A stretch of DNA of 33,313 nt from an uncultured Caryophanales bacterium (lineage in GTDB: Bacteria; Bacillota_I; Bacilli_A; RF39; UBA660): positions 1-33,313 of the forward strand of contig CAMODE010000001.1 of assembly GCA_946611235.1 (NCBI GenBank), in the 5' to 3' direction. Each line of letters starts with the position of its first letter. Positions within the stretch are counted from its first letter, which is position 1. Positions 3,154 to 32,307 of this stretch are shown piece by piece. A program made the position numbers and the translations under genes. The notes under the pieces are model-generated. The model did no database searches, was not told where the DNA came from, and saw only the letters and a program-made list of their open reading frames with translations.

Positions 3154-3816
3154 ATGAATAAGTATAAACTACTAATAATATTATGTTTTTTCTTTTTGAC
3201 CCTTTTTCTACCCAAAGTTACCGCAATTATTAACGGATATAGTCTTATGGGGAAAGTAATATGTATTGACAGTGGCCATGGTGGAGTAGATACTGGAGCC
3301 TTAAGTAAAACAATTGTAGAAAAAGATTTAAACCTCGTATTATCAAAAAAATTAGAAAAAGAATTAACTTCTCGAGGAGCAATAGTGTATCAAACAAGGG
3401 AAGGAGATTATGATCTTTCAACAACAACAATTAATAGAAAAAGAAGTGATTTATATAACAGAGCAAAATATATCAATGAAATAAAACCAGATTTATATAT
3501 TTCAATTCATTTAAACTCAACAACATCACAAAATTGGAAAGGGCTTCAAGTATTTTACACAAATAAAAATGAAGAGAATAAATTAATAGCACAAGCATTG
3601 ACAAATAATTTAAAAGAAAAATTATCCAATGTAAGAGAAATAAAACAAGGCAATAATTATTATATGTATAAATACATTAAATATCCAGGAATACTAATAG
3701 AGGTCGGTTTCATTTCCAACCCTGATGATAACTATTTATTAAGAAATGGTGAATATCAAGATAAATTAATAGCATTAATATCAAAAGGTATTGAAATATA
3801 TTTTGAAAATAAGTGA
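3154..3816 (+). CDS. N-acetylmuramoyl-L-alanine amidase (Amidase_3, CwlD-like)
   Basis: This zinc amidase is predicted to cleave the bond between MurNAc and L-Ala in peptidoglycan outside the membrane. The 220-residue product starts with one hydrophobic segment (about 5-25) that serves as signal or anchor. Family zinc ligands are visible as His42 (IDSGHGG), Glu56 and His119 (SIHLNS), and the catalytic Glu183 lies in IEVGFISN. The short form, with only a membrane segment plus catalytic domain, resembles CwlD, the spore-cortex muramic-lactam amidase of Bacilli. A vegetative cell-wall amidase is equally possible because no binding domain is present. AGGTGA at 3145-3150 sets the start. The gene lies 30 bases after the nucleoside kinase gene. 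Confidence 0.9.
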   Translation: MNKYKLLIILCFFFLTLFLPKVTAIINGYSLMGKVICIDSGHGGVDTGALSKTIVEKDLNLVLSKKLEKELTSRGAIVYQTREGDYDLSTTTINRKRSDLYNRAKYINEIKPDLYISIHLNSTTSQNWKGLQVFYTNKNEENKLIAQALTNNLKEKLSNVREIKQGNNYYMYKYIKYPGILIEVGFISNPDDNYLLRNGEYQDKLIALISKGIEIYFENK

Positions 3817-3881
3817 CAACCTATTTTAAAAGAGAAAAAAATATTGTATAATTAAGAAGATAAGGGCGATAGGTGATATTG

Positions 3882-4241
3882 ATGAAAAAAATATATTTAA
3901 AATATGATGAAAATAATCCAACAGCAGAGTGTGATTTTGGATTTATTAAAGAAATGACATATATGGGATTTTTATATCCACTAAAGAAAAAAAATTATAA
4001 AATGTTTTCAATAATATTTTTAACAGAACTAGCAGTAGCCATATTAATAATGTTTTTTATTCTTCCCCCAATTGCCGGGATAATAGCTACTTTTTTTATG
4101 ATTATGTTAACAAACATTTTATTTGCGGCAAATTACAATATGATTGTAATTGAAGAACTTCTAAAAAGGGGATATGTGCCAAATGATTATAATTCCTCTA
4201 ATTTATTAATTAAAAAGGGGATATATTTTAAATTACAATAA
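3882..4241 (+). CDS. Small membrane protein, DUF2628-like
   Basis: A 119-residue protein with two adjacent hydrophobic segments (about 43-62 and 65-85) and charged ends. The pattern of an aromatic stretch before the helices, then AxNYN and a terminal KRGY resembles the DUF2628 family of small inner-membrane proteins of unknown function; this is recognition by pattern and is tentative. The start is the ATG at 3882 because AGGTGA at 3871-3876 is 5 bases away; an in-frame GTG at 3873 is part of that site. A TATAAT at 3847-3852 may be its own -10. No function is proposed. Confidence 0.75.
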   Translation: MKKIYLKYDENNPTAECDFGFIKEMTYMGFLYPLKKKNYKMFSIIFLTELAVAILIMFFILPPIAGIIATFFMIMLTNILFAANYNMIVIEELLKRGYVPNDYNSSNLLIKKGIYFKLQ

Positions 4242-4253
4242 ATATATTTTTTT

Positions 4254-4284
4254 AAATTTTATCAATTTCGTAATTAAAATTTTT
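4254..4284 (+). terminator. Possible A/T-only terminator after the small membrane protein
   Basis: AAATTTT (4254-4260) and AAAATTT (4276-4282) can pair across a 15-base loop and are followed by T residues. The stem has no G-C pair, so this is weak. Confidence 0.25.
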
Positions 4285-4309
4285 GACATTCAGCAATTTC
4301 AAACATAAT
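4283..4309 (+). promoter_or_regulatory. Candidate promoter for the non-coding RNA upstream of the Abi gene
   Basis: A consensus -35 TTGACA (4283-4288) and a -10-like CATAAT (4304-4309) are separated by 15 bases, shorter than the optimal 17. No coding frame of note starts downstream before 4458, so a transcript from here would first make the hairpin at 4323-4360. Confidence 0.45.
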
Positions 4310-4315
4310 GAAATA

Positions 4316-4380
4316 AAAAACAGCTAGGAAACCATTATCTTAAGATGATTGGTTGTTAGCAATTACATCCAGTATATAGA
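4316..4380 (+). ncRNA. Candidate structured RNA upstream of the AbiF-like gene
   Basis: Bases 4323-4360 fold into an interrupted hairpin. GCTA (4323-4326) pairs with TAGC (4357-4360), AACCA (4330-4334) pairs with TGGTT (4350-4354), and ATC (4337-4339) pairs with GAT (4344-4346) around a TTAA loop. It lies about 14 bases after a possible -10 and about 100 bases before the Abi start. AbiF/Abi_2 genes are known to be associated with a conserved upstream ncRNA that acts as an RNA antitoxin, so position and structure fit. The RNA ends given are guesses; I see no strong intrinsic terminator, and I have not matched the sequence to the published motif. Confidence 0.4.
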
Positions 4381-4405
4381 ATAAAAAAATAACTAAAATA
4401 TGTAT

Positions 4406-4431
4406 CAATTTTTTTAAAATTGTGGTATACT
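4406..4431 (+). promoter_or_regulatory. Abi gene promoter with overlapping dyad
   Basis: TGGTATACT (4423-4431) is an extended -10. An inverted repeat CAATTTT-TTT-AAAATTG (4406-4422) fills the spacer just before it. This dyad could be an operator or a weak terminator of the upstream RNA. No convincing -35 is seen. Confidence 0.5.
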
Positions 4432-4457
4432 TTAAAAAGGATAACGGGTGTGATACT

Positions 4458-5381
4458 ATGGAAAAAACATTTAAAACAATAGACGAACAAATACAAATAC
4501 TAAAAGATAAAAACCTAATAATTGAAGATATAGATTTTACAAAAGAAATCCTTCTTAGAGAAAACTATTTTTTCATAATGGGATATCGCAATCTATTTTT
4601 AAAACCAAAAGAAAATAAATTTATATCCGGGGTAACTTTCGATGAATTATATGCCCTTTTTACTTTTGATAGAAATTTTCGAAATATTATACTAAAAAAC
4701 ATTCTGGTTATTGAAAATCAGTTAAAATCCATCATTTCATATCAGTTATCAAAAAAATATGGATATAAAGAAAATGAGTATTTAAATTCTAAAAATTTTA
4801 CTCAGGAAAAAGAAAAAACTAGAAGAGTAAAAGATTTAATTGAAAAAATGAAACGGCAAATAAGGGTTAATGCAACTACTCATAACGCCACTATGCACTA
4901 TATAACAAACTATGGATATATTCCCTTGTGGGTGCTCGTAAAGGTTTTATCTTTTGGTATTGTTTGTGAATTATATACAATACTAAAAAAAGAAGATCAA
5001 AATGATATAGCAGAAATTTTCGGGACTACTCCTCAAATATTGAGTGATACTTTAATTCTGTTATCGAACTATCGAAACTTATGCGCTCATGAAGATATAC
5101 TGTATGATCATCGAACTGAAAGAGTTGTGCCTGATACAAAGTATCACGAATATATGAGTATATCTAAAATGGATGGTGAATATATTTATGGAAAAAACGA
5201 TTTATTTTCTCTTATAATAATTTTTAAAATTTTATTGGAGAAAAAGGATTTTAGAATAATGATGCGAGAAATAGAATATGAAATAGAATTATTGGATGGA
5301 AAAGTCGATTCGATTTCAATAAATAAAATATTAGATAGAATGGGTTTTCCTCAAAACTATATAGAAATAATAAGTAGGTGA
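4458..5381 (+). CDS. Abi_2/AbiF-type HEPN RNase-like protein (abortive infection)
   Basis: The 307-residue product has the features of the Abi_2 (AbiD/AbiF) family. These are an N-terminal KNLII..FTKEILLRENYFFIMGYR-type segment, IPLWVLVKVLSFG at 155-167, and the HEPN motif RNLCAH at 206-211 (R-x4-H) followed by YDHR. In HEPN RNases the Arg and His form the active site, so an RNA-cleaving toxin is expected from family knowledge. AbiF proteins have been described as toxins held in check by an RNA antitoxin and as relatives of the ancestors of Cas13. The start is the ATG at 4458, with GGGTGTGAT just upstream; the frame extends back to 4422 but that part contains the promoter. htrA begins 6 bases after the stop. 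Confidence 0.88.
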   Translation: MEKTFKTIDEQIQILKDKNLIIEDIDFTKEILLRENYFFIMGYRNLFLKPKENKFISGVTFDELYALFTFDRNFRNIILKNILVIENQLKSIISYQLSKKYGYKENEYLNSKNFTQEKEKTRRVKDLIEKMKRQIRVNATTHNATMHYITNYGYIPLWVLVKVLSFGIVCELYTILKKEDQNDIAEIFGTTPQILSDTLILLSNYRNLCAHEDILYDHRTERVVPDTKYHEYMSISKMDGEYIYGKNDLFSLIIIFKILLEKKDFRIMMREIEYEIELLDGKVDSISINKILDRMGFPQNYIEIISR

Positions 5382-5387
5382 TAAAAA

Positions 5388-6500
5388 ATGAAAAATAAAA
5401 ATAAAATATCAATTATAGTAATTGTAATACTATCCTTTGCTCTAGGAGCATCATGGACATACATGGTGTTAAGGCAATTAAATGGAAAAGATTCACCACT
5501 TTCACAAGTAATTGGTAGTTATACAATTAGCGAAAATAGTATAGCTGGAGCCGTTGATAAAGTATATGATGCAACAGTAACAGTAATAACTTCAAGTGGT
5601 GGTAGTCAAGTATCATCTGGAACTGGCTTTGTTTATAAAGTAGACGGCTCTACAGCATATATAATGACTAATAATCATGTTATAGCTAGTGGTGATGCAG
5701 CAAAAATAATTTTTAGTGATGGTTCTGAAGCCGAAACAAAAATACTTGGAGGAGATACCTATGCTGATATAGCTGTATTGACAACTAGTACAAAGTCAAT
5801 CAAACAAGTAGCAACAATTGGTAATACCGAAAACATAAAATTAGGAGATACAACTTTTGCAGTTGGAGCTCCCCTTGGCGATACTTATAGTGGAACAGTA
5901 ACAAAAGGAATATTGTCGGGCAAAGACCGCCTAGTTGAAGTTAGTTTTAGCGGGACAACATCTGACTACTACATGAAAGTCCTTCAGACAGATGCAGCCT
6001 TAAATCCTGGAAATAGCGGGGGCCCATTATGTAATATCAATGGTGAAGTAATAGGCGTTACATCTTTAAAATTAACTCAAGAAAAGATATCGGCAACAAA
6101 CACATATAGTGTTGAAGGAATGGGATTTGCAATACCAATAGAGGATGCACTATACTATGCGGAAATAATAGAAACAGGAGAATCTATAAAAAGACCATAT
6201 GTGGGAATAAGTATGCTAGATATAACAGATAGTTATTATTTATGGCAAGCAGGTATTACAATACCAGAAGGAATAAAAAAAGGAGTAGCATTACTTGAGG
6301 TAGTAGAATCATCTCCAGCCGAAAAGGGAGGACTAAAAAAAGGAGATATTATTGTAAAATTAGAAAATGAAAAAATAGAGTCAGTAGCGGAACTTCGCTA
6401 TGAATTATATAAACATAATCCTGGTGAAACAGTAAAAATTACATTTAATAGAAATGGTAAGGAACATACAACTACAATAACATTAGAAGAATCTAAATAG
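5388..6500 (+). CDS. htrA: HtrA/DegP-like membrane-anchored serine protease with PDZ domain
   Basis: A trypsin-fold (S1C) protease that degrades or refolds damaged proteins at the outer face of the membrane. The 370-residue product has an N-terminal membrane anchor (about 7-27), a Gly/Ser-rich catalytic domain and one C-terminal PDZ domain (about 275-368). The catalytic residues are His97 (TNNHV), Asp127 (ADIAVL) and Ser210 (GNSGGPL). The start follows AGGTGA at 5377-5382, which overlaps the stop codon of the Abi gene. No promoter is visible in the 6-base gap, so htrA may depend on the Abi gene promoter or on one inside it. A strong terminator follows. Confidence 0.95.
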   Translation: MKNKNKISIIVIVILSFALGASWTYMVLRQLNGKDSPLSQVIGSYTISENSIAGAVDKVYDATVTVITSSGGSQVSSGTGFVYKVDGSTAYIMTNNHVIASGDAAKIIFSDGSEAETKILGGDTYADIAVLTTSTKSIKQVATIGNTENIKLGDTTFAVGAPLGDTYSGTVTKGILSGKDRLVEVSFSGTTSDYYMKVLQTDAALNPGNSGGPLCNINGEVIGVTSLKLTQEKISATNTYSVEGMGFAIPIEDALYYAEIIETGESIKRPYVGISMLDITDSYYLWQAGITIPEGIKKGVALLEVVESSPAEKGGLKKGDIIVKLENEKIESVAELRYELYKHNPGETVKITFNRNGKEHTTTITLEESK

Positions 6501-9148: not shown

Positions 9149-10408
9149 ATGAAAAGGAATTTATTAAAAAGAGTATCATTGTTAAGTTTAGCATCGTTAG
9201 CTCTATTATCACCAACAATTACCAAAGCTGAAAATGTATGTACTACTCACAAAAATTATTATCTTTATTTATTGATTGATGAGGTGCCAGGATTTGTAAA
9301 TAATGTTTACAATTCTAATGAAAACCACGAAAAAGAATATTATAATAGTGCATATTTTCCAATGTTACCCGAAAATGCTCAAGCTGCCTTCAACAATAGC
9401 AGTGGAATAGTATATGGAAGAATATGCTTATCAAAAGACGGAGTTGCTGATGGGAAGGATCTTCAATGTGTTAAAGGCATTACATGGACACTAGAAGATT
9501 ATTATCGCATAAGATTGGATATTACAAATCACCCATCTAGGAAAACCCCAATAACGATTAATAATAAAGAATATACAATTACTGAATATGAAAAAGAAGG
9601 AGAACTTGAAAATGGCTATAAAGTAATTGAACACTATTATGGGGGAGCAAAATGGTATAAATGTGAAGATGCCGCATGTGCAAATGCAACTGAAGGAGCT
9701 TCAGGAGCAGATACTTCAAAAATGTCAATTGAAAATTTAGTTAAAGGGTCATATTTACCTACTCAAACAGGAATTACTTTTCATCCCGCTGAATCAAGTA
9801 GAGCAATAATAACTAGAAAAATAAATGTAAAAGATTTTTTAGATTATTTAACATATGATGAAAATGGCAATCCTAAAGTGGATGATGAGGGAAGTTTAAT
9901 TATTAATAACAATTCACAAAAAGTTACTCCTTTTAACCTTGTATGGATGAATGGTCAAGAAGCAAGAAAAAGTTTATTAGCTCCAGCAGTTTATTATGTT
10001 GAATATCAAACATGTCAAGATGAATATAAAGCTACAATCAATTATTACTACTTTAAAGATGGAAAAACAACAACAGATAAAGTAGAATTTGATAATAAAG
10101 AAGATAATCCATATACTAAAACTGGATTAATTTTAGGTTCAAAAGATAGTGTTAAATCTCCTGAAAAGAAGGGTTGTACAATAGTAGATACTAAAGGAAA
10201 TAAATATGATACAGATAAAGTAGTTAGTTATGAAATAAAAAATGAAGATTTCACAAAGGATGTATACTATTATTGCCCTGCTGAGGATGAAGCAAAAACT
10301 AATAGTAAAACAGGCGATGCTCTAATCTATCTTGCTTGGGCTATAGGACTAGGAGCAATTGGATACTCAGTATATTACTTTAAAAAAGAAAAAAAAGAAG
10401 AAATATAA
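9149..10408 (+). CDS. Secreted surface protein with C-terminal anchor (NSKTGD) and eight cysteines
   Basis: The 419-residue product begins with a classical signal peptide (KRNLLKR, hydrophobic 9-22, probable cleavage after TKA at 27). It ends with NSKTGD (385-390), a hydrophobic helix (391-411) and a KKEKKEE tail. This is the layout of a sortase sorting signal, with NSKTG where LPXTG or NPKTG is usual. No sortase gene is in the window, so it may instead simply stay membrane-anchored. Eight cysteines (31, 93, 107, 172, 177, 289, 343, 376) are spread through the mature part, unusual for Gram-positive surface proteins and suggestive of disulfides. Residues ~293-376 recall MucBP-type repeats (TINYYYFKDGK...YYC), tentatively. 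Its own promoter and terminator make it monocistronic. Substrate or partner unknown. Confidence 0.8.
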   Translation: MKRNLLKRVSLLSLASLALLSPTITKAENVCTTHKNYYLYLLIDEVPGFVNNVYNSNENHEKEYYNSAYFPMLPENAQAAFNNSSGIVYGRICLSKDGVADGKDLQCVKGITWTLEDYYRIRLDITNHPSRKTPITINNKEYTITEYEKEGELENGYKVIEHYYGGAKWYKCEDAACANATEGASGADTSKMSIENLVKGSYLPTQTGITFHPAESSRAIITRKINVKDFLDYLTYDENGNPKVDDEGSLIINNNSQKVTPFNLVWMNGQEARKSLLAPAVYYVEYQTCQDEYKATINYYYFKDGKTTTDKVEFDNKEDNPYTKTGLILGSKDSVKSPEKKGCTIVDTKGNKYDTDKVVSYEIKNEDFTKDVYYYCPAEDEAKTNSKTGDALIYLAWAIGLGAIGYSVYYFKKEKKEEI

Positions 10409-29626: not shown

Positions 29627-30523
29627 ATGGAAAAAATAATTAAAGAACAAATAGGAGATGTCATATACTATCATGCTGAGAACCATGATAAAAGATTTTA
29701 TGTAAAAATAATAGATGAAGAATCTGGAATTCCTTGTTTATGTTATAATGATGAAACCTACGGAGAAATTGAATTAAAAAAACTTGGTTATGTTGGCCCA
29801 AGTACAAAAACAAATTTTATTTATCAAGTTGAAAACTTAGGTATCGATAGAAAGGGACCGGGTTTTTACATAAAAACATCTTTTAAATATAATAAAACCG
29901 CAGATTTAAGACTATATTGCTTTTACGTTAAAGATAATTGGCCAAAACTATATCCACTCAAGCCTAGAACAATTGTTAATGGTTCTCTTGATGAAATATT
30001 TATTAATCCCCATCATTACATATATGATTTAGAAGATAAATATGATGCAGATAAAGGTGGAAGAATTTCTGGCGTTAATGGACAACTAAATAGAAAGCAT
30101 AGTATTATATATACAAAAAAAATTGATGATGATACATATGCAGAAGTTGAAAAAGTCTTTAAAGAAAAAAACATTATATTAATTAAAGATATTTTTCCTC
30201 AAACAATTTTTGATGGTTCTACAACTCTTTCACTAGAAGAAATAACTTATGGAATAGATGCTAATACTTTAGAGGTTGTTACTCCTATTTATAGCATGAG
30301 ACAGCAGGCATTTATTGATATAGAACAAGATGCATTTATTAATAATGGAGGAGAATACCCATCATGGGCAATGGGACATTTTAACGAATCTGATTTTGAT
30401 GCAACAGTAGTATTTAAAATTCTTGCTCCCCTAATTACTATTCCTACAAAAGGGCCAGATATACTTAATTCAGATGGAAACATTAATGATGCTTTTGCTA
30501 AAAGGTTATTATTAAAAAAATAG
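29627..30523 (+). CDS. Hypothetical protein in a repeat-flanked single-gene cassette
   Basis: The 298-residue protein has no signal peptide or membrane helix and an alternating, beta-rich pattern, with Gly/Pro-rich turns (YVGPSTKTNF, DRKGPGFYI) and LYPLKPRTIVNG. A middle part holds IFINPHHYIYDLEDKYDADKGGRISGVNG, and a C-terminal Ala/Ile segment ends in KRLLLKK. I recognise no family. Its surroundings are notable: direct repeats derived from the uvrA terminator lie on both sides, tandem 26-base repeats precede it, and its own promoter and AAAGGAGGG ribosome site are strong. It converges on the HerA-like gene. Its product may be an accessory function acquired as a unit. Confidence 0.75.
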   Translation: MEKIIKEQIGDVIYYHAENHDKRFYVKIIDEESGIPCLCYNDETYGEIELKKLGYVGPSTKTNFIYQVENLGIDRKGPGFYIKTSFKYNKTADLRLYCFYVKDNWPKLYPLKPRTIVNGSLDEIFINPHHYIYDLEDKYDADKGGRISGVNGQLNRKHSIIYTKKIDDDTYAEVEKVFKEKNIILIKDIFPQTIFDGSTTLSLEEITYGIDANTLEVVTPIYSMRQQAFIDIEQDAFINNGGEYPSWAMGHFNESDFDATVVFKILAPLITIPTKGPDILNSDGNINDAFAKRLLLKK

Positions 30524-30561
30524 TTCATATCAAATTTGAACTATTTTTCTTATTTTAAATA
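30513..30561. repeat. Direct repeat copy B / bidirectional terminator
   Basis: Second copy of the segment at 29423-29470. The hairpin AAAAATAGTTCA (30516-30527) with TGAACTATTTTT (30537-30548) ends both the gene at 29627 (stop 30521-30523) and, in the other direction, the HerA-like gene (stop 30550-30552). Confidence 0.88.
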
Positions 30562-32307
30562 CCAAGTATTATTAATATCACAACTTTGACTTAAAGGTTC
30601 AGGATTAGGTTTATCCAGGATAGCAATCGTAGGCATCCTAAAGGCTGTACCAAACATAATACAAGTACCTGGATGCAATGTTTTAATTTTATTAGTTACT
30701 GTAATATCTGCACTAGATATAATATCTTTAATGAATTGTAGATCCTTAGGATGAAACATTTTAAATACTAAGAAATTACTACATTGTGAAATCGTTGTTT
30801 CCGATAATTCTGAAGGTCTTTGAGATACTATACCAAGAAGTAATCCATATTTTCTACCTTCTTTAGCAATTCTTTCAAATATATTATAACCAAGTATATC
30901 TACATCACTATCATTTTGTACGTATCTATGAGCTTCTTCTAGTACAATATGGAATGGCATCGAAGCTCTTTGATTAAGGGAAGTAATATAATCAAATAAA
31001 AGTTTAGAATATATTTTAACTAAGTTTTTAGCAAATCTATCATCAACATAGTTTATATTAAAGTTAACAATCTGAGCCTTTCTACCATTATTACAAGTAA
31101 GCAATGTACTTATAAAGCCTTCTCTATTGACATATCCGTCATACTCAAAATATCTAGCATAATCACTATTCATAAGATTATTAAATCTTACTTTAAGAAC
31201 ATTACCAAGTTCAAAAGCAGTATCACTGTTCATTATACCTTCACTAATTAGTGCAAACTCAAGAGCAGTAGAAAAATCCTTCATCGTATACATAAACTCA
31301 CCATTAGGTAGATTTAATTCAAAATTATTTAGACATAAACTTTCCAAGTACTCAATGACAAGTTCAACATCTGCAAACTCCCCACCTTGTTCAACAAATA
31401 AACATTGTCTAATTGTTCTAGTCCATCCACCTTTTTCAAGTTTAATTTCAAGATTAAGATTACTAGTACTAAACTTAGTTAGGATAGATACAAACTTATT
31501 TCTAATAAGACTAGGAGCTTTACCAGAAAATAATACATCTAAAAGACATCTAGCTATAATATCATTTTTTTGACCAATAACCTCTGCTTCTTCTCTAGCA
31601 AAATAAGAAACTAACTTTAAAGCTTTCTCAATAATAGGAATTTGTTCTTTAGAAGTAACATTCATAAGTAGACATAGATCATCTACTCCAAGAAGCCAAA
31701 AGGGGTACCTAAGTAGTTCAAACTCATTACTATTTATATCAGTAGTGTATACTTTATAATTAATGTTTTCATTAACTTCATGGATTCTCGAAAAAGCTCG
31801 CTGATACTCACCATAAGCATCAAATAAGAAAATATTTGAGTAAAAAGGTAATTTCTTACATTGATAAAAGACACTTTGAAGTATTTTAGCGACACTATAA
31901 CTTTTACCAGAACCAGAGTTACCTAGAATAGAAAAATGATTAGAAAAGAAGTTTCCTATATCTAGTTTAAGATTGTAATTAGGGTATACATAACTCTTAC
32001 CAAGTACAATGCTATTATCAGAACTGCTACTTAAAATAATATCTAGACTAGCATTATCAATAAGTTCACATACTGCATTAAAAGAAGGCTTAGTAATATC
32101 GCCAAATAAAAATTTACCATTCCTTATTTCCCCGGTAAGAACAGTTTTCATGATACCATCTTCAATAGAAGTAACTTCACCGATACTAGTAAAGTCCTTA
32201 TCTTTAAATACAACATGTTTACCAATTAAGCCATCTATTGAATAAATATCTATACCAAGTCTAACAGATACAATACTTTCGTCAATAGCAATAATCTTTC
32301 CTAGCAT
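30550..32307 (-). CDS. HerA-like (DUF87) hexameric ATPase/translocase
   Basis: The 585-residue product has an N-terminal HAS-barrel-like region (1-75) and the FtsK/HerA RecA fold: Walker A GNSGSGKS (129-136), Walker B HIVLEEAHRY near residue 465, and GIVSQRPSEL, a typical HerA sensor/arginine region. HerA proteins translocate DNA, in archaea with the nuclease NurA for end resection; bacterial ones often work with SIR2, NurA or other nucleases in phage defence or repair. No such partner is adjacent here. The start at 32307 follows AAAGGATG. Convergent with the gene at 29627. Role unknown; repair or defence are both possible. Confidence 0.88.
   Translation of the reverse strand: MLGKIIAIDESIVSVRLGIDIYSIDGLIGKHVVFKDKDFTSIGEVTSIEDGIMKTVLTGEIRNGKFLFGDITKPSFNAVCELIDNASLDIILSSSSDNSIVLGKSYVYPNYNLKLDIGNFFSNHFSILGNSGSGKSYSVAKILQSVFYQCKKLPFYSNIFLFDAYGEYQRAFSRIHEVNENINYKVYTTDINSNEFELLRYPFWLLGVDDLCLLMNVTSKEQIPIIEKALKLVSYFAREEAEVIGQKNDIIARCLLDVLFSGKAPSLIRNKFVSILTKFSTSNLNLEIKLEKGGWTRTIRQCLFVEQGGEFADVELVIEYLESLCLNNFELNLPNGEFMYTMKDFSTALEFALISEGIMNSDTAFELGNVLKVRFNNLMNSDYARYFEYDGYVNREGFISTLLTCNNGRKAQIVNFNINYVDDRFAKNLVKIYSKLLFDYITSLNQRASMPFHIVLEEAHRYVQNDSDVDILGYNIFERIAKEGRKYGLLLGIVSQRPSELSETTISQCSNFLVFKMFHPKDLQFIKDIISSADITVTNKIKTLHPGTCIMFGTAFRMPTIAILDKPNPEPLSQSCDINNTWYLK

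Follow-up and report, generated by a model that had tools for sequence, protein, structure and literature searches.

AbiF proteins are viewed as toxins restrained by RNA and as ancestors of Cas13. The AbiD/F proteins fall in a clade with the HEPN domains of Cas13an (PMC12165695). PbAbiF, a relative of the protein considered here, is bound to an RNA encoded in cis, and the bulge nucleotides of that RNA block the enzyme in the complex (PMC12737573). Genes of the abiF/abi_2 type are not present in every genome of a species, and they are enriched in defence and mobile surroundings (PMC12373285).

Here we analyze an abi locus in a stretch of 33,313 nucleotides from an uncultured Caryophanales bacterium, the whole of which is referred to as the window. 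The original prediction for this locus was a chromosomal toxin-antitoxin module, in which a hairpin upstream of the gene may represent a diverged form of the abiF RNA. The features of the locus are as follows.

3154-3816, plus strand: CwlD-like N-acetylmuramoyl-L-alanine amidase gene (Pfam Amidase_3)
3882-4241, plus strand: gene for a 119-aa membrane-type protein between the amidase gene and abi (matching nothing in Pfam or NCBIfam)
4242-4282, no strand assigned: flank after the 119-aa gene, a possible decayed remnant of a divergent gene (blastn to a congener)
4283-4380, no strand assigned: lineage-specific 98-nt segment containing the claimed promoter and hairpin (no match in congeners)
4283-4309, plus strand: promoter-like TTGACA-N15-CATAAT (sequence match; not conserved)
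4323-4360, plus strand: interrupted hairpin with arms GCTAG/TTAGC (fold; not conserved; not RF03085)
4381-4457, plus strand: congener-conserved strip upstream of abi, with promoter and ribosome binding site (alignment)
4421-4431, plus strand: extended -10 box TGTGGTATACT, the putative own promoter of abi (conserved in orthologous loci)
4458-5381, plus strand: abi, encoding an Abi_2 (AbiF/AbiD family) HEPN protein of 307 aa (Pfam, PADLOC, PDB 8VZ6)
5073-5090, plus strand: HEPN catalytic motif R206-N-L-C-A-H211 (invariant in orthologues)
5388-6500, plus strand: htrA, encoding an HtrA-type serine protease with a PDZ domain (Pfam Trypsin_2, PDZ)

The abi gene product

The product of 4458-5381 is a true AbiF relative, a HEPN protein of the AbiF/AbiD family. 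The Pfam profile Abi_2 (PF07751) matches it over the full profile length (1-184 of 184) with an E value of 1.2e-42 and 146.7 bits, above the curated cut-off of 25.6, and the PADLOC AbiD profile spans the whole protein (E 3.6e-58). By sequence, PbAbiF (PDB 8VZ6, E 2.7e-14) is the sole relative with a solved structure, and the same structure was the best match (TM 0.76/0.79, E 8e-10) in a fold search with an AlphaFold2 model (pLDDT 82; input of 24 sequences, the window protein and relatives); this search gave no significant match besides 8VZ6, a Cas13d chain being a distant and non-significant second. The motif RNLCAH occupies residues 206-211, its codons starting at 5073, and in the form RN[LVI]CAH it is present in 89 of 89 orthologues, whose loci come from 89 genomes of mostly different genera; the equivalent residues of AbiF-Cd, R202 and H207, are required for toxicity (PMC12373285). 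The family assignment and the HEPN motif given in the original prediction are thus borne out by Pfam, PADLOC and the sequence and fold of 8VZ6, and its description of the gene as chromosomal in an AT-rich Bacilli lineage also holds.

Distribution and inheritance

A relative of abi is present at an E value of 1e-20 in 362 of 388 genomes of the family and in 137 of 138 genera, and an orthologue at 1e-60 is found, with one match each, in 180 of 194 good genomes (about 93%) and 81 of 83 genera of the order. Their record titles describe these relatives as uncultured Bacilli of gut and faecal origin, and abi is a near-core gene at a fixed chromosomal place in this order of gut Bacilli. The approximately 7% of good genomes without it argue against essentiality, with the qualification that the genomes are mostly metagenome assemblies and that this absence may partly reflect missing contigs. 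The literature searched contained no published account of AbiF as a core gene in this lineage.

Among congeners the dN/dS of abi is 0.05-0.11, an approximate range with dS near saturation, and the gene is, so far as such estimates indicate, under strong purifying selection. Trees of abi and htrA have 17 splits in common, against 0.2 expected by chance, and the Mantel r between the two genes is 0.64 against a permutation maximum of 0.46; because they are adjacent, this agreement shows joint inheritance and not strict vertical descent. The remaining Abi_2 copies of these genomes are distributed patchily, and some of them, one in the window's genome among them, are broken. We note that two extra copies in that genome, both outside the window, G000:C8:3542-4124 and G000:C35:41598-42137, comprise one that is split into two reading frames and one that is divergent; accessory Abi_2 copies seem to decay, whereas the copy in the window is retained.

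Neighboring genes

In the window htrA begins 6 nt after abi, and it directly follows abi in 81 of 89 loci with a median gap of a few nucleotides, at least 500 nt of downstream sequence being available in 87 of the 89; the two genes are probably co-transcribed. On the other side, the amidase, whose best NCBIfam match is CwlD with a score below the CwlD cut-off, is the direct upstream neighbor of abi in many genera, and where it directly adjoins abi, 20 of the 21 loci measured have a gap of 58-141 nt, the remaining one having a gap of 4 nt. The 119-aa protein that intervenes in the window has no match in Pfam or NCBIfam; it is conserved in congeners and in locus L027, and occurs in this genus and a single near genus.

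We note that in phage phiC2 (L113) abiF lies between a holin and an amidase endolysin, and that the window abi follows the CwlD-like amidase (3154-5381); the resemblance is possibly a coincidence or a trace of a phage lysis module. Two more distant features of the window may be recorded. A HerA-type ATPase gene at 30550-32307 on the minus strand (PADLOC E 8e-105) is convergent with a gene at 29627-30523 on the plus strand for a 298-aa protein with no Pfam match, and no partner nuclease was recognized near the ATPase. At 9149-10408 on the plus strand is a gene whose 419-aa product carries a membrane anchor at its C terminus and matches nothing in Pfam; this product is probably secreted and likely a surface protein.

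The region upstream of abi

As had been described, a gap of 216 nt (4242-4457) separates the open reading frame that ends at 4241 from the abi ATG (4458), and the elements that the original prediction placed there are present: TTGACA at 4283, CATAAT at 4304, the interrupted hairpin with its GCTAG/TTAGC arms at 4323-4360, and a separate second promoter sequence at 4421-4431, which is conserved in relatives. No convincing small open reading frame was found in the gap. There are two instances of the pattern TTGACA-N(14-20)-CATAAT in the window, where 0.06 would be expected; at 4283 the spacer is 15 nt, and our promoter scan requires 16-18 nt. The hairpin has a folding energy of -13.3 kcal/mol (z -3.9 relative to dinucleotide shuffles), there are 22 other spots in the window, counting both strands, with a 46-nt fold equal to or better than it, and 4290-4450 folded as a single piece is not unusual (z -1.5). 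A role as a terminator was rejected, since the hairpin has no T-run and was not detected by the terminator scan, which found no terminator-like site anywhere in 3800-5450. Rfam searches of the window and the gap, at gathering and permissive thresholds, returned nothing or chance matches only.

The extended -10 box at 4421-4431 ends 26 nt before the abi ATG. In 73 of the 89 orthologous loci a box of the form T(A/G)TGNTA(T/C)A(A/C)T lies with its end 15-34 nt upstream of the start codon, and in shuffled upstream regions it occurs in 0.48 loci on average and at most in 2. The strip 4381-4457 aligns to relatives with a score of 96, against 41.9 (sd 3.2) for shuffled sequence, and within the genus RNAalifold detected no conserved base pair in this upstream strip. 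We also considered a palindrome spanning the abi promoter, for which the extended -10 promoter is the simpler reading. A box so close to the start codon leaves no room for a leader RNA, and if these boxes are the promoters actually used, the architecture rules out leader-RNA control of the C. difficile type. As a separate observation, boxes of the form TRTGNTATAMT occur seven times in the window against 1.4 expected, and because of this the promoter type looks general in this genome.

Origin of the segment 4283-4380

The flanks of this segment align to congeners, up to 4282 on one side and again from 4381 on the other. No homologue of the segment itself was found in the other genomes of the genus, 10 in number, there is no second copy in its own genome, and plasmids and phages gave no meaningful match; the last two results led us to discard the idea that the hairpin belongs to a repeat or mobile element. 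By blastn, 4200-4282 is 83% identical to the nearest congener, its non-coding part alone aligning weakly (12 of 200 shuffles reach its score), and the alignment of 4242-4282 reaches the 3' end of a divergent gene in congeners. Nine of the 10 congeners keep abi, and in eight of these nine the divergent gene, of about 985 nt, occupies the segment's place; it belongs to the Zn_dep_PLPC family (PF00882), is Zn-dependent phospholipase-like, and is absent from the window's genome. The ninth congener, G009, has neither the divergent gene nor the insert, and only about 100 nt are present. From the matching flanks and the presence of a divergent gene at the same place in eight of nine congeners, 4283-4380 is therefore best read as a species-specific scar of a lost divergent phospholipase-like gene. 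As a decayed part of the Zn_dep_PLPC gene the segment was rejected, its similarity being no greater than that of shuffles.

We note that a Zn_dep_PLPC-family gene lies head to head with abi in 31 of the 89 loci (for example L088:2413-3399, L089 and L091). The two genes share an intergenic strip of about 100 nt, the Zn_dep_PLPC gene having been lost in the window's genome and in G009, and the head-to-head pairing may be functional.

Search for the abiF RNA

The covariance model of the abiF RNA family, RF03085, gave no match up to E 10 in 4150-4520, no match in the window's own genome with permissive filters, and nothing above chance in 60 relatives with stricter filters. As a positive control, it recovered the two motifs known to lie upstream of abiF in phage phiC2 (37.6 and 19.5 bits). 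It gave no match at the Abi_2 genes of two other phages either, so that a diverged RNA family is possible, and Rfam searches of 20 loci of divergent Abi_2 copies returned unrelated families and no abiF RNA. The phiC2 motifs have a long single-stranded stretch in the 3' side of the stem, and the hairpin at 4323-4360 is without this asymmetric single-stranded stretch.

The identification of the hairpin as a diverged abiF RNA therefore fails, on the negative RF03085 searches with their positive phiC2 control, on the missing single-stranded stretch and on the lack of conservation of the segment. Nor is the proposal of an RNA toxin-antitoxin module supported, RF03085 not being found and 4283-4380 being absent from all abi-keeping relatives, where a comparison for conserved pairing likewise found no conserved structure upstream of abi; the original prediction had named this very outcome as one that would refute it. 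An RNA acting in trans, an antisense RNA, or an RNA overlapping the 3' end of the amidase gene would be missed by these searches.

Discussion

The reading that we favor, with a probability of about 0.6 for the whole, is that abi encodes a vertically inherited, stand-alone AbiF-type RNase with no recognizable adjacent RNA antitoxin, and that it is probably co-transcribed with htrA. Such a protein would most likely be a homodimer, by analogy with PbAbiF, and would cut single-stranded RNA through R206 and H211, as the conserved motif and the fold suggest. The gene would be transcribed from the extended -10 promoter directly in front of it, giving a leader of about 20 nt and probably one message shared with the envelope protease gene. 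Restraint would probably come from low expression, from an activity that is intrinsically weak or specific, or from a partner in trans, and the most likely role would be a fixed RNA-cutting response to stress or phage, perhaps tied to the envelope state; the link to envelope stress is drawn because of the adjacency of htrA, solely from gene order.

Some of the same features could be accommodated by an ordinary resident abortive infection gene of the AbiD/AbiF kind, directed against phage, without an antitoxin and fixed in this order by happenstance. The PADLOC AbiD match and the link of the Abi_2 family to phage defence are consistent with this, but the usual distribution of Abi_2 genes is patchy, with enrichment around mobile and defence genes, whereas the window gene is single-copy and fixed beside htrA in about 93% of good genomes, and we regard this explanation as rather unlikely. 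Somewhat less credit still is due to a split RNA toxin-antitoxin system, with the RNA partner encoded elsewhere and belonging to a family outside RF03085. The basic and catalytic residues are retained, the AbiF proteins studied experimentally in the cited papers bind an RNA, and RF03085 also misses other phage Abi_2 loci; against this, RF03085 does not rise above chance anywhere in 60 relatives, and an antitoxin in trans would require strict co-inheritance over more than 130 genera.

The remaining alternatives concern the hairpin segment. It is improbable that 4283-4380 represents a small RNA or regulatory insert that arose recently in this species and has no connection with AbiF, for although its promoter-like boxes and hairpin are good ones, there is no copy of it in its own genome, congeners, plasmids or phages, and many equal hairpins occur in the window. 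Very improbable indeed is a type III-like pair, in which an RNA from the TTGACA promoter carrying the 4323-4360 hairpin would bind and silence AbiF. The boxes and a hairpin stronger than shuffles do lie upstream of a true AbiF gene, and AbiF-Cd and PbAbiF are both restrained by an upstream RNA, but the segment is missing from all abi-keeping congeners, the hairpin is not RF03085 and is without the abiF bulge, and the abi promoter is separate and conserved, with no terminator. A false antitoxin lead is corrected, because the hairpin sits in what is best read as a gene-loss scar of one species.

The surprise, as it emerges from genome comparison, is a near-universal inherited AbiF in a group of gut bacteria with no sign of the guardian RNA of its known cousins. 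A stand-alone AbiF-type RNase of this kind raises the question of how a clade-wide AbiF with an intact active site and no recognizable neighboring RNA is kept safe, and what its daily role might be. More tentatively, and with the odds somewhat against it, we suggest that it is an RNA-free, near-core HEPN RNase that shares an operon with htrA and has a housekeeping or envelope-stress function throughout an order of reduced-genome gut Bacilli. If true, this would be a living example of an AbiF freed from, or never tied to, an RNA antitoxin. It would also offer a naturally occurring case with which to compare the transition from toxin to guided enzyme, asking whether RNA is still bound and whether dependence on it was gained or lost.

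Comparison with known systems

The PbAbiF-ncRNA complex (8VZ6) is the closest solved structure by both sequence (E 2.7e-14) and fold (TM 0.76/0.79), and it differs in that PbAbiF has a cis-encoded RNA for which no counterpart was found here. The AbiF-Cd/RCd22 system of C. difficile prophages likewise consists of an Abi_2 protein of similar length with an RN-x-C-A-H HEPN motif, encoded by a single gene (PMC12373285). There, however, RCd22 is situated between the promoter and the gene and contains two RF03085 motifs; the window locus has no such RNA, but a predicted leader of about 20 nt, and its gene keeps a fixed place with one orthologous copy in nearly all relatives. Unlike Cas13, the window protein has one HEPN domain, and no guide RNA family was detected at its locus. 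The lactococcal abortive infection proteins AbiD, AbiD1 and AbiF belong to the same Pfam family, and the PADLOC AbiD profile spans the whole window protein; whereas the lactococcal genes are plasmid-borne (PMC12373285), the window gene is located on the chromosome in conserved synteny and is nearly universal within its order.
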